From Arthrobacter sp. KBS0703 (GTDB lineage Bacteria; Actinomycetota; Actinomycetes; Actinomycetales; Micrococcaceae), in contig NZ_MVDG02000001.1 of the NCBI RefSeq assembly GCF_002008315.2, forward strand, positions 1,736,001 to 1,800,000: DNA of 64,000 nucleotides, read 5' to 3'. This document shows positions 31,763 to 46,395 of this stretch, piece after piece (position 1 is the first letter of the stretch; every line of letters starts with the position of its first letter). A model generated the notes under the pieces. It had not been told where the DNA came from. It did not search any database and saw nothing but the letters and a program-made list of their open reading frames with translations. The position numbers and the translations under genes were made by a program.

Positions 31763-32809
31763 CTATCCGCCGATGTACGACATCTCGATCCTGCGGGCCG
31801 CGGGGGCGTCCGCCACAGCGGGGGTGTCGGCGCTGCGCTGCTCGGAGTAGCGGTCCGCGCGGCCGCCCCAGAGGGAGGACAAGGCCACGGAGAGGTCGGC
31901 GTCGGAGGCGCCGCCGCGCAGGAGTGCCCTCAGGTCAGTGCCGGCCGTGGCAAACAGGCACGTGAAGAGCTTGCCGTCGGCGGACAGCCTCGCGCGCGTG
32001 CAGCCCCGGCAAAAGGCCTGCGTGACGCTGGAGATGACCCCGATTTCACCGCTGCCGTCCCGGTAGCGCCAACGCTCGGACGTCTCGCCGGGGTAGTTCG
32101 GCGCCACCGGGTCCAGCGGAAACACCGCGCCGATGCGGGCCAGGACCTCGGCGGAGGGCACAACCTGGTCCATCTTCCAGCCGTTGGATGCCCCAACATC
32201 CATGTACTCAATGAACCGGAGGATGAACCCGGATCCCTTGAAGTGCCGGGCGGTGTCCACGATGTCCTGGTCGTTCTTCCCGCGCTTGACCACCATGTTG
32301 ATCTTCACGGGCCCCAGCCCCGCCTCGTGGGCGGCGTCGAGGGCGTGCAGGACCTTGGCCACGGGATAGCCGGCGTCGTTCATGGCCTGGAACGTTTCCT
32401 CCCGGACCGAGTCCAGGGACACGGTAATGCGGTTCAGCCCCGCGTCCTTGAGGATCCGGGCCTTCTGCGCCAGCACCGAGCCGTTGGTGGTCATGGCCAG
32501 GTCCGGCGCCCGCCCGTCGGGGGTCCGCAGCCGGGCCAGCGTGCGGACCAGGACCTCAAGGTCCTTCCGCAGCAGGGGTTCCCCGCCGGTCAGCCGGATC
32601 TTCAGTACTCCGTGGGCCACGGCAATCGACGCCAGCCGGGTGATTTCCTCAAACGTCAGCAGCTGCTCCCGGGGCATGAAGACATAATCCCTGCCGAAGA
32701 TCTCCCGGGGCATGCAATAGACGCAGCGGAAATTGCACCGGTCCGTGACTGAAATCCGCAGGTCCCGGAGGGGCCGGTGGAAGGTGTCGGTGATGGATGT
32801 GGCGTCCAT
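31763..32809 (-). CDS. moaA: GTP 3',8-cyclase (molybdenum cofactor synthesis)
   Basis: 348-residue radical SAM enzyme converting GTP to 3',8-cyclo-7,8-dihydro-GTP. The N-terminal cluster motif is CNFRCVYC. The second [4Fe-4S] site is [18 protein letters not shown], and the obligatory C-terminal Gly-Gly is present (SYIGG). ATG at 32809 has AAAGGG seven bases upstream. No other moa genes are adjacent. Confidence 0.95.
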
Positions 32810-32926
32810 GCAGCGCCCTTTCAAAGCGGCAGCAGCGTCCACCGCTCGTATATCTCCCAGCGTATGCCCGCGGGCGGGCCCCCACAATGACGGGCGCCAA
32901 TGGCCGGCCCCTGGACCGGAGCCGGG

Positions 32927-35600
32927 TCACATCCTGCGTTTGGTCCTTGCCGTCGCCGGTGCCGTCCACGGGTCCTCCGGCCAGGGGTGCTTGGGATAGC
33001 GTCCGCGCATCTCGGCACGGACCTGCGCGTAGGGTCCGGACCAAAACGAGGCGAGGTCGTCCGTGACCGCTAGGGGCCGCCTGGCCGGCGACAGCAGGTG
33101 GAACAGCACCGGCACCCTCTCCCCCGCCAGCCGCGGCGTCGCTGCCCAGCCGAAGCATTCCTGCAGCTTGACCGCCACCACCGGCCGGCCGCCGTCGTCC
33201 GCTGCGTCCGGATAGTCGATGCGCACCCGGGAACCGCTGGGCACCTCGAGCCACTCCGGAGCCAGCTCGCCCAGGCGGGCGGCGTCTGGCCACGGCAGCA
33301 GCCTGCGGAGAGGATCTGCCAGGTCGATGCCGTTCGTGGCGGCCCCGCCGGCCAAGGCCTCCAGCTCCGGCGCCAGCCATTCGTCCAGCCGCCCCAGCAG
33401 CGCCTGGTCGGAAACGTCCGGCCAGGGTTCCCCCAGTTCCCGGTGCAGCAGGGCGAGGCGGCGGCGCAAGCCGTCTGCCGCCGTCGACCATCCGATGGTG
33501 CCGAGCCCTTCCTTCTTCAGCGCGCGGGCCACCGCCGCCCGCCCCTCCTCCATGGACGGCCTGACCGGCGTGGATGACAGCGCGATCGCTCCCAGCCGGC
33601 GTCCCCGTCGGGCGGTCACGCGGCCCTGGTTGAACCCCGCTTCCACCGTTTCCTCCATGAGGTGCCGGGCAGCGGCCTCTGCCGTGTCCGCCGTCAGCGG
33701 CGCCGCGGAGCGGATGACGGCGCCGGTCCCGGCCGCGTCGCGTCCTTCGGCGCGCGACACCTCCGCGACGGCCAGCCACTCGTGCCCGGTCAGCGGGCTG
33801 CCGGCCGGGAGCCCGGCCCTGGTGCCGGAGGACAGCAGGTAGCGCTCCGGCCCCTGCCCCGGCACGCGGCGCGCCACACGGTCCGGAAACGCGAGGGCGA
33901 CGACGAACCCGACGGCCGCTGCGCCGGTCACCGGGACAGCAGGTTGGGAAGGCGCGACGCCGGCGGCTTCCTTGCGCGCGATCGATTCCATGCGCCGGAC
34001 ATCCTCCGCCCAGCGCCGCGCCGCCGGGTCGGCCCCCGTCCGAAGGGTGCTCAGCAGCCGCGTCAGGTCGGCGCCGGGGCGCGCTGGTCCCCGGCAACCA
34101 GGGCGACCGCCTCCGCCGCCGTCCGGTGGCCCACGGCGGCGGCACCGTCCAGCAGGGCGCGGGCCAGCCGGGGTCCGCGGGAATCCTGGCCAGGGTTTTG
34201 CCGAGGCACGTGGCGTGCCCGTCCGGTTCCACCGCGCCGAGCTCGCGCAGCACTTCAACGGCCTCGTCCATCGCCGCCCGCGGCGGGGCGTCGGGCAGGG
34301 CCAGTCCCCGCCCGCCGGGTGCTCCCCAACAGGCAGGACAAGGGCCGCACCCGTCAGGTCGGCCACGGAGATCTCCGGTGTCCTGTGGGCGGCGCGGCTC
34401 GAACGTCTTCTGGTCGTAGCAGCGGACCACCTGCCCGGGGCCCTGCCGTGCGGCGCGTCCGGCGCGCTGATCGGCGGACGCGCGGGAGCAGGACACTGTC
34501 ACCAGGCCGGACATGCCGCGCGCGGAGTCCCTGCGCGGCTCGCGGGCAAGCCCTGCATCGATGACCAGCCGGACTCCCGGAACCGTGAGGGAGGATTCGG
34601 CGAGTCCCGTGGAAACGATGATCCGCGGCGGGCCGCCCGCGTCCCGCCCTGAGACGGCGCGGTCCTGCGCCTCCGGGCTGACCTGTCCGTGTAGCTCCAG
34701 CACCTCGGTGCCCGTTCCAACCCGGCCGCGCAGGCGGCCCGCGACGTGGGAGACCTCCCGGGCGCCGGGGAGGAACACCAGGGCGTCAACGTTCAGGTCG
34801 CGTGCCAGCGCTTCGGAGTGCGCGGCCGCGGCGGTGTCGGCCACATGGTCAAGGAACGCGCGGGTCACGCCCCGCGGGTCCAGTCTCGGCACCGGCGGTG
34901 GCGCCCAGCGGGTTTCCAGGGGGTACAGCGCGGAGGGGCAGTCGACGACGGGAGCCGGGCCGCCGCCGTCGTTCTCCCCCGCCGGAGCATCGCCGATCAG
35001 GGCCGCGAACCGCGGCGCGTCCAGCGTGGCGGACATGGCCACCAGCGTGAGGTCGCCGCGCAGCTGGCGGACCTCGGCGAGCATGCCGATCAGCAGGTCT
35101 GTCTCCAGCCCGCGTTCGTGAACCTCGTCGAGGATGACGGCGTCCACGGCCTCCAGGCCGGGGTCCGAGAGCAGACGCTGCAGCAGGATGCCGGGGTGAC
35201 GAACTCGACCACCGTGCTGGAGCCGGCCTGGCGTTCACCGCGGACCGTGTACCCCACGCGGTCTCCCAGCCGGCTGCCGTCCAGGGTGGCAAGCCGCCGC
35301 GCCGCGGAACGCGCGGCCACTCGGCGCGGCTGTCTCTTATACACATCTAGATGTGTATAAGAGACAGCCGTTCTTCCGTGCGGCGCTGGCGGCGATATTT
35401 GCGAGAAGGGGCGGGACCAGGGTGGTCTTGCCCGTGCCCGGGGGCGCCTGCACCACGGCCGTTCCGCCGGCGCCCTGCGCGCGCAGCGCTTCTGCAAGCA
35501 GCCCCAGCGAATCCGCGAAAACCAGCCCCGTTTCGATGGCGCCCAAATCGAAGGGCCCGTGGGGAGGAACGGGTGCAGGAGGCCTAGCCGGTGAAGTCAC
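32927..35600 (-). pseudogene. hrpB: ATP-dependent helicase HrpB, broken by an adapter join and several frameshifts
   Basis: DExH helicase of the HrpB type. Walker A APPGTGKTT, the DEVH box ILDEVHERGLETDLL, SAT motif VAMSATLD and motif VI ADQRAGRAARQGPG are all readable, then the HrpB C-terminal domain to 32927. The frame is lost at the 38-bp mosaic-end palindrome (35330-35367), which replaces roughly six codons before PRRVAARSAARRL. It changes again near 35193, 34388, 34335, 34180 and 34085, each fixable by a single base. GTG at 35600 is the likely start. The real gene is probably intact. Confidence 0.85.
35330..35367. other. Two Tn5/Nextera mosaic ends back to back (assembly artefact)
   Basis: Perfect 38-bp palindrome: CTGTCTCTTATACACATCT followed directly by its reverse complement AGATGTGTATAAGAGACAG. 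This 19-bp sequence is the hyperactive Tn5 mosaic end used in Nextera tagmentation. There is no transposase gene and no 9-bp target duplication around it. It interrupts hrpB and native codons are missing, so it marks an adapter-mediated chimeric join or unclosed gap. Confidence 0.95.
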
Positions 35601-35836
35601 CCGTCCATTGTGCCTATAATCCTTGGGCGCATTGTCCTCAGGACGGTAAGCCTTGGGCCGGGTGCCCGGCGCTCCGGCCGTTCCTGTGAGAAGCCATAGC
35701 TTGCCTGAGGTAAGCTGTCCAACCACGCCCGCTGGTCTTCGTGACACCCACTGGTCTTCATGACAAGGGAATATCGGCGCAATGGTGTAGGTTGCATATC
35801 CGTCAGAGTAGAACGCCAGAAAAGAGAAGCACCTAA

Positions 35837-44029: not shown

Positions 44030-44716
44030 ATGCCCCGCCTCGCTAACCCCGGCACAATTTCACGGCCGGCCCCGTCCGCCGTCCTCCGCGAAACCCGGGC
44101 AGTGGCAGTCCTGCGGGCAAGCCACGCCTCGGACTACGCACCCGTGATCGAGGCGCTGCAGCGCGGCGGCGTGCTCAGCATCGAACTCACGCTGAGCACG
44201 CAGGGCGTCTGGGACGAACTTCCCATCCTCCGGGACCGCTTCGGGGACGCCCTGGAGATCGGCGTCGGGACCGTTACCGACGCAGCCGAGGCTGAGGCGG
44301 CCCTCGACCTCGGCGCCGCCTACATCGTCACCCCCGTCACGGATCCCGGCGTCATCACCGCCTGCGTCAGCCGCGGCGTGCCGGTCTACCCCGGCGGGCT
44401 GACGCCCACCGAGCTGCACGCCGGGTGGAAACTGGGTGCCACGGCCGTGAAGGTCTTCCCCGCCTCCACTGTCGGCGCCGGCTACGTCTCACAGCTCCGC
44501 GGCCCGTTTCCGGACATCGAGGTGATTCCCTCCGGCGGCGTCAACATCGACGACGTGCCCGGATGGATCAAGGCCGGCGCCCTGGCCGTCAGCCTCGGCG
44601 GGCCGCTGCTTGGCGACGCCTTCAAGGGCGGCGATCTGCGGGAGCTGACGTCCAGGGCGCGGCGCGTCCGCGAGCTGATCGACCGGACGGCGGACCAGAT
44701 GGGTGGCAACAAGTGA
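44030..44716 (+). CDS. eda: KDPG/KHG aldolase
   Basis: 228-residue class I aldolase splitting 2-keto-3-deoxy-6-phosphogluconate to pyruvate and glyceraldehyde 3-phosphate. Key blocks: IELTLST (Glu), GVGTVTDAAEAE, IVTPVTDPGVI and the Schiff-base lysine in ATAVKVFPAS. Nine bases downstream of the permease; its TGA overlaps the GTG start of the kinase. Confidence 0.92.
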   Translation: MPRLANPGTISRPAPSAVLRETRAVAVLRASHASDYAPVIEALQRGGVLSIELTLSTQGVWDELPILRDRFGDALEIGVGTVTDAAEAEAALDLGAAYIVTPVTDPGVITACVSRGVPVYPGGLTPTELHAGWKLGATAVKVFPASTVGAGYVSQLRGPFPDIEVIPSGGVNIDDVPGWIKAGALAVSLGGPLLGDAFKGGDLRELTSRARRVRELIDRTADQMGGNK

Positions 44717-45664
44717 GCACGGCGCCCTACGTACTGACCTTCGGTGAGACCATGGCGCTGATGCGCGCCGACCAGGTCGGCCCGCTCGCCCATGCCTCCA
44801 CCATGAGCCTCGGCATCGGCGGCTCCGAATCCAACGTCGCCATCGGGCTCCAGCGTCTCGGCGTGCAGGCGGTATGGTGCGGCCGCGTCGGGGCGGACGG
44901 CCTCGGCCAGCTGGTCGAACGCGAAATCCGCGCCGAAGGCGTAGACGTGCGCATCGCCCTCGATCCTTCCGCCCCCACCGGACTGATGATCAAGGAACGG
45001 AGGACACCGGCCACCCAGCGCGTCAGCTACTACCGCACCGGCAGCGCAGGGTCCCGGATCGCGCCCGGGGACGTCGACGAACACCTCATCACCCGGGCCG
45101 GCCTGCTGCACGTCAGCGGCATCACCCCAGCCCTGTCGCCGCAGGCGGAAGCGACCCTGAGGTACGCGATTGACGCCGCCAGTGCGGCGGGCGTGCCGGT
45201 GTCCTTCGACCTCAACTACCGCGGGAACCTGTGGTCGCGCGAAGATGCGGGAAGCGTCTACCGTGACATCATTCCGTTGGCGGACATCGTGTTCGCCGGC
45301 GACGACGAGGCCGCCATAGCGGTGGGTGCCGGCGCGCCGGAGGAGCTGGCCCGGCGGATAGCCGCGCTCGGGCCCGGCCAGGCGGTCAAGATGTGTATAA
45401 GAGACAGGGGCCCTGGCGATCATCGACGGGCAGTTGTTCCGCCGGGGCGCGGTCGCCGTCGACGTGGTGGACACCGTTGGCGCCGGCGACGCGTTCGTCG
45501 CCGGCTACCTGGCCGAATTCATCGGAGGCCGGGGTCCGGAGGACAGGCTGCAGACGGCAGCGGCAACCGGGGCCTTCGCCTGCCTGGTCCCCGGAGACTG
45601 GGAAGGCTTCCCGCGCCGCGGCGAACTCAACCTGCTCGGCGCGAAGGAACCCGTCTCCCGCTGA
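44713..45664 (+). pseudogene. kdgK: PfkB family 2-keto-3-deoxygluconate kinase, broken by an adapter sequence
   Basis: Ribokinase/PfkB-fold kinase phosphorylating KDG to KDPG. The N-terminal part has GETMALMRADQVG and the GGSESNVAIGL substrate block. The C-terminal part has the catalytic DTVGAGDAFVAGYL. The two parts are out of frame because a 19-bp mosaic end (45389-45407) sits where a few codons of the anion-hole region should be. Without it the gene would be ~315 residues and intact. GTG start overlaps the aldolase stop. Confidence 0.87.
45389..45407. other. Single Tn5/Nextera mosaic end (assembly artefact)
   Basis: Exact 19-bp AGATGTGTATAAGAGACAG inside the KDG kinase gene. Same sequence as one half of the palindrome at 35330-35367. 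Reading frames before and after it are each correct for the kinase but mutually shifted, and some native bases are missing, as expected for adapter read-through used as a join. Confidence 0.92.
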
Positions 45665-45666
45665 GA

Positions 45667-46395
45667 CTACCGCCTGACCACGACGTCGTCGATGTAGCTG
45701 TCACCCATCTGACGGGGGTGCTCGGCGCCAAACTGGACCCTGCTCAGGCTCGTTGCACCGATGCTCACCGCCTTGGAGAAGACGGATGCGCCGTCGAACC
45801 AGACTTCGATGGTGGATTTGGCACCATTCGCCCTGACCTGCATCTGGACCCTGTGCCACGTGTTCAACGGGATGCCCTTGGTCGACAGCCTGGTGAACGT
45901 GAACGTACCGTCGGGATTCGTGACCCGCAGCCACAGCTGCCCGGTGGCGTTGTCCCGGAACACGTCCGCGACCCGGGTGGCGCCGGAGAAGAACCTGACA
46001 TAGGGCACGTTGTTCCCGCGGAGCCCGGCCGTCGCGATGTTAATCCAGGCGTCTGCGCCGGCCCTCTTGGTCCGGGCGGGCAGCGCCATGCCCATGTTTG
46101 CCACGGAACCGACATCCGCCGTGGCGTGAAGCCTGGCCGAACACGTCCCGGAGTGCGCCTTCGGGCTGGCAACAGCCGCCGTTCCATTGCCCGAGGTCGT
46201 CGTGACGAACGGGGACAGCGAGTTGCCCTCGAAGTTGGTGGCGGTCAGCAGCCTGCCCGACAGCGGGCTGGAAGGGGCGGCCGTTCCGGTGCGGCAGGTC
46301 GCCGACACGGCCGCGTTGGCGGAACCGAAGATGAGGGAGCTGGAAACCAGCAGCCCGAGGGTTCCGATCGCACCCAGTTTCCTTAGATTGCTCAT
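45667..46395 (-). CDS. Secreted LamG/concanavalin-like protein
   Basis: 242 residues. A signal peptide (KLGAIGTLGLLVSSSLIFGSANA, cleavage after about residue 28) precedes a beta-rich domain like those in laminin-G or polysaccharide-lyase lectin modules. Typical are TNFEGNSLSPF at its start and DSYIDDVVVRR at its end, with WHRVQMQVRA in between. No catalytic motif seen; a carbohydrate-binding role is inferred. Converges with the KDG kinase gene at a 2-bp gap. Confidence 0.75.
   Translation of the reverse strand: MSNLRKLGAIGTLGLLVSSSLIFGSANAAVSATCRTGTAAPSSPLSGRLLTATNFEGNSLSPFVTTTSGNGTAAVASPKAHSGTCSARLHATADVGSVANMGMALPARTKRAGADAWINIATAGLRGNNVPYVRFFSGATRVADVFRDNATGQLWLRVTNPDGTFTFTRLSTKGIPLNTWHRVQMQVRANGAKSTIEVWFDGASVFSKAVSIGATSLSRVQFGAEHPRQMGDSYIDDVVVRR

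Follow-up and report, generated by a model that had tools for sequence, protein, structure and literature searches.

The 38-bp palindrome in an hrpB-type gene of Arthrobacter sp. KBS0703 is almost certainly a mate-pair circularisation junction left in the assembly

The mosaic end (ME) combines the outside and inside ends of Tn5 in a hyperactive hybrid, and it is a functional site for the Tn5 transposase. According to the part of the NextClip paper that describes the chemistry, the Nextera mate-pair protocol places a 19-bp biotinylated adaptor on both ends of a fragment, and circularisation joins the two junction adaptors; the program's criterion is 18 of the 19 adaptor bases, or 34 of the 38 for the pair (PMC3928519). 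That description gives no letters for the adaptor (PMC3928519). Only one paper that we found prints the exact 38-mer, and the part of it that does so presents it as the adapter ligated to ultrasound-sheared fragments of about 4 kb to close them into circles (PMC7357533). Because the 38-mer was ligated to sheared DNA in that protocol, its letters alone cannot separate Nextera tagmentation from the ligation of a ring adapter (PMC7357533). What the letters show is a mate-pair circle, for which the Nextera kit is the likeliest source.

The window analysed here is a stretch of 64,000 nucleotides with a GC content of 67.3%, C1:1736001-1800000 of an assembly of 4,860,540 bp in 37 contigs. At positions 35330..35367 it holds a perfect 38-bp palindrome, formed by two exact 19-bp MEs standing back to back, the first on the minus and the second on the plus strand; a sequence-only reading of this DNA had claimed as much, and the sequence match bore it out. 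The two ends are separated by zero bases, with neither a transposase nor a marker between them, and the 38-mer has no mismatch to the circularisation adapter printed in the paper cited above (PMC7357533). A third exact ME, not mentioned in the earlier reading, lies at 45389-45407 within a pfkB-type sugar kinase gene, and searching the window for exact 11-mers of the ME revealed no remnants beyond these three. A chance origin is excluded, because shuffled windows contain on average 0.01 ME matches even when up to three mismatches are allowed. The features are as follows.

32649..35329, minus strand: larger, C-terminal part of an hrpB-type DEAH helicase gene, left of the artefact (listed open frame 32649-35147)
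35330..35367, no strand assigned: 38-bp palindrome of two ME copies, almost certainly an artefact, a mate-pair circularisation junction (Nextera Mate Pair type)
35330..35348, minus strand: exact mosaic end (sequence match)
35349..35367, plus strand: exact mosaic end (sequence match)
35368..35616, minus strand: N-terminal part of the hrpB-type gene with the nucleotide-binding motif GTGKTT, right of the artefact (comparison with relatives)
44425..45387, plus strand: start of the open frame 44425-46386, N-terminal part of the pfkB-type sugar kinase (residues 102-314 match PfkB 3-214)
45389..45407, plus strand: single exact mosaic end, same class of artefact (sequence match)
45407..45598, plus strand: part of the pfkB-type kinase downstream of the artefact, in another frame (PfkB 231-294)

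The palindrome interrupts the hrpB-type gene, whose C-terminal part matches the NCBIfam HrpB model with an E value of 1.5e-59 and 202 bits, below the curated cut-off of 546. We compared the gene with the best-matching loci of relatives, 11 in all. In 11 of 11 both flanks are colinear and on the same strand, and native bases occupy the position of the adapter. The flanks are separated in these loci by 52, 34, 43, 41, 40, 22, 25, 31, 19, 22 and 61 bp, that is, by a native spacer of 19-61 bp with a median of 34 bp (taken by hand from the coordinates), against 38 bp of adapter here. By the translations of the relatives, the lost part begins in a variable linker that follows ...VPPLLANIA and extends into R-[V/I]-[V/I]-V-T-Q, just before PRRVAAR. 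The six near-invariant codons of R-[V/I]-[V/I]-V-T-Q are gone, together with part of the variable linker, so that the earlier estimate of about six missing codons holds for the conserved residues and is a minimum for the whole, given the 19-61 bp found in relatives. The further warning that the left and right parts might not be adjacent was not borne out at this join, as the flanks keep the same order and strand in all 11 loci. Near 35195, some 130 bp away from the adapter, hrpB changes frame as well, in a region where the loci of the 11 relatives stay in one frame; judged from the sequence, this may possibly be a further local assembly error.

The single ME breaks the kinase gene. The match to the PfkB profile ends at position 214 and resumes at position 231 across the ME at 45389-45407. 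In the one relative compared (G012), whose pfkB flanks are colinear with those of the window, 18 native bp stand where the 19-bp ME stands here, and the kinase frame therefore shifts.

These two sites belong to a genome-wide population. Exact MEs in the assembly number 339 on the forward and 342 on the reverse strand, 681 in 4.86 Mb, whereas a control pattern, the ME read backwards, has no match anywhere in the genome. Perfect 38-mers number 251 and account for 502 of the 681 MEs, leaving 179 outside them. Among the 206 genomes of the genus that were examined, this genome is the only one with the 38-mer (none of the 205 others), and in a sample of 296 genomes of the phylum it was found in two, including this one, the other with a single copy. 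We studied the sites more closely in a sample of 460 kb, made up of the window and 20 further stretches; its adapter density is biased upward, because some stretches were picked for known sites. This sample contains no N and 74 adapter-core events, 45 of them 38 bp long, 16 of 19 bp, 8 of 37 bp and 5 of other lengths; the 37-mers and the single MEs fit partial adapters at the ends of reads. The 15 bases flanking the adapter on either side are distinct in 119 of 119 events (two samples; a stretch boundary cuts through one event). Over 20 bp on each side of the adapter, the GC fraction is 0.746 in the 460-kb sample, compared with 0.671 at random sites, which fits gaps in poorly covered sequence. 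Microhomology across the joins was not found: the longest common substring of the two flanks averages 6.5 in the events and 6.5 in mismatched pairs.

Joins elsewhere in the assembly were compared with a relative, G020, in four loci of 20 kb that hold 16 joins when neighbouring adapters are merged. Twelve of the 16 could be placed, and order and strand are kept in 12 of 12; with both strands searched, no flank had a minus-strand match. Net of unaligned bases of the assembly itself, G020 has 21, -117, 92, 106, 43, 12, 14, 579, 123, 182, 54 and 74 bases at the placed joins, a net excess in 11 of the 12, part of which may sit in a short island between merged adapters. The loss of native bases is thus not uniform across joins, the net spacing ranging from -117 to 579 bp. 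The placeable joins thus connect neighbours. At the other four joins one flank had no match in G020; one of them is at the edge of its locus, and two bound a 1.69-kb stretch, L021:8340-10026. This stretch between two adapter sites has no significant match in the syntenic 18-kb region of G020. We considered it as a duplicated island, an idea left unsupported by a search of its own genome, which has no second full copy of it and only the 36-bp mate-pair copy.

We reasoned that if a junction read had been taken into the assembly, the right flank of the adapter should copy, from the adapter edge and on the same strand, the sequence one insert length upstream; in mirror image, the left flank should copy sequence downstream. 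Copies were scored as exact 16-mers no more than 3 bases from the adapter edge and within 15 kb, at 118 events, 74 in the 460-kb sample and 44 in an independent 400 kb. Same-strand upstream copies of the right flank were found at 5 of 118 events, 4 among the 74 of the first sample and 1 among the 44 of the second, every one of them at 3.1-4.0 kb. Downstream copies of the left flank number 2 of 118, one from each sample, and lie 3.6 kb and 12.4 kb away. The 12.4-kb copy extends barely beyond 16 GC-rich bases, and chance probably explains it. Each of the six control orientations gave 0 edge-anchored copies in 118, and random sites lead one to expect about 0.37 right-upstream and about 0.35 left-downstream copies per 118 (37 and 35 of 11,800).

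Beside a 38-mer at L021:13100-13135 stands a chimeric island of 36 bp with 97% identity to sequence lying 3562 bp upstream, of which it is a copy. This island is a mate-pair junction read incorporated into the assembly; because it carries a mismatch, it falls outside the five exact right-flank copies. Copies at 3.1-4.0 kb thus occur at 7 of the 118 events (five exact right, one mismatched right and one left), and in six of the seven the printed alignment starts or ends at the adapter edge. A search tolerant of mismatches in the first sample (74 events) gave one control match with a score of at least 20 in each of two orientations; both lie away from the adapter edge, and one belongs to the L021 island. 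At the window's own two sites no insert-length copy was seen. Taken by itself the second sample supports a circularised library only weakly, with a single copy among its 44 events at the distance expected (3964 bp) besides the 12.4-kb outlier. Together, the copies indicate a circularised library with an insert of roughly 3-4 kb.

Could the adapter have entered the assembly without any circle? In an ordinary Nextera paired-end library, reads from short inserts continue past the ME and into the tail of read 1 or read 2, and untrimmed MEs could then overlap. The 460-kb sample contains no exact read-1 or read-2 tail on either strand (the letters used as query being those we take to be the Nextera tails), nor any exact TruSeq, P5 or P7 sequence. 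Read-through would yield the identical 19-mer, and the authors of SKESA report, in the part of their paper dealing with a random set of trimmed read sets, that this 19-mer ranks first in frequency among the suspect k-mers in 199 of 219 (PMC6172800). The lack of exact tails speaks against ordinary read-through, and the directed copies at 3.1-4.0 kb require circularised fragments; we reject this explanation, to which we give a very small probability. The sequence-only reading had taken the 19-mer for a tagmentation adapter: an ME adapter artefact it is, but of a more specific kind, a mate-pair junction without exact Nextera tails in the 460 kb.

Smaller still, to the point of being nearly negligible, is the probability that the MEs are real DNA of the strain, either insertions of synthetic ME-ended transposons of the EZ-Tn5 type or natural Tn5/IS50 ends. 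The ME is, as stated at the outset, a functional transposase site, but the 38-mer occurs in 251 copies with nothing between its two ends, at the two window sites native bases are replaced and not merely interrupted, and none of the 205 other genomes of the genus has it. An exact 9-bp target duplication was found at 0 of the 74 events in the 460-kb sample; this agrees with the earlier claim that a target-site duplication is lacking, and on this ground a real Tn5 insertion was rejected. Least probable of all, and rejected with practically no doubt, is a native regulatory palindrome or hairpin: the inverted repeat is perfect and recurs, but in the window it lies within coding sequence where relatives have coding bases (native ones in their hrpB), it is identical at 251 places with 0 mismatches to the published circularisation adapter (PMC7357533, in the part that prints it), and it is absent from the 205 other genomes of the genus.

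We are thus left with the 38-mer as an assembly artefact, which it almost certainly is: a mate-pair circularisation junction forming an adapter-bridged join at which native bases were dropped. The adapter bridge proposed by the sequence-only reading gains support from the genome-wide census, from the native bases of relatives at the adapter and from the insert-length copies at a minority of sites. The course of events was most likely as follows. Genomic DNA would have been made into circles of about 3-4 kb to build a mate-pair library, with Illumina Nextera Mate Pair as the most likely kind, each circle being closed by an ME and a reverse ME that together form the 38-bp palindrome. Junction adapters would have stayed unclipped, or only partly clipped, in the reads. 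Where the assembly had gaps, presumably commoner at GC-rich places, reads entering from either side would terminate in adapter. Since the palindrome reads the same on either strand, it could act as a false overlap, by which the two sides would be joined and the native bases between them dropped. A minority of sites would have received an entire junction read, and with it, next to the adapter, sequence that belongs 3-4 kb away. We infer that the joins were made by a step of gap closing or contig merging; at the hrpB gene, the most likely course is that adapter-terminated reads from the two sides of a GC-rich gap were merged by way of the strand-symmetric palindrome.

The same 38-mer occurs in other public sequences. 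At least 120 stretches of genome contigs carry it, and among the 80 matches listed it is found in contigs of 17 named genomes, counted by their titles. It is present in 5 of 72,556 plasmid records, in 0 of 50,697 phage records and in 7 stretches of viral contigs. The flanks of the adapter in these other genomes (L060-L179) are often duplicated locally across the 38-mer. In the exact copy test on 120 foreign loci with 194 events, the right flank was copied upstream in 63 and the left flank downstream in 61, while the control orientations gave 25, 19 and 5 matches and, in the remaining three, 0. Many of these copies are local duplications of less than 200 bp, and in L136 and L142 runs of N were counted as false matches; because of the control matches, the local duplications and the N runs, the foreign counts are not usable as proof. 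Among the papers listed for the peptide DVYKRQ, a translation of the adapter, no title deals with assembly contamination.

The artefact is of a known kind and of low biological interest; its value lies in data quality and in a warning to users of the assembly. The breaks in the hrpB gene and in the pfkB-type kinase gene of the window should not be taken for pseudogenes, and any comparative use of the assembly should mask both its 251 junctions and those 179 MEs that are not part of a perfect 38-mer. Completeness statistics are blind to it, the genome being rated 99.99% complete with 2.58% contamination. In our judgement, unclipped mate-pair junctions quite probably form a class of errors that goes unflagged in reference genomes, in which GC-rich bases are deleted and, at some joins, insert-distant sequence is spliced in, with broken genes and short chimeric islands of no organism as the result; the directed copying of a flank at insert length would then serve as a diagnostic that needs no reads.

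In comparison with known systems, the ME resembles the ends of Tn5/IS50, but here there is no exact target-site duplication (74 events) and no cargo within the window's 38-mer. Adapter contamination of public assemblies involves the same 38-mer and is heavier here, with 251 copies against one in the other positive genome of the phylum sample. The closest likeness is to the junction adapter of Nextera Mate Pair (Nextera Long Mate Pair), described in the chemistry part of the NextClip paper as a 19-bp adaptor, of which two copies likewise stand back to back, 38 bp in all (PMC3928519). That junction adapter is a feature of reads, whereas here the 38-mer stands in the assembly itself.
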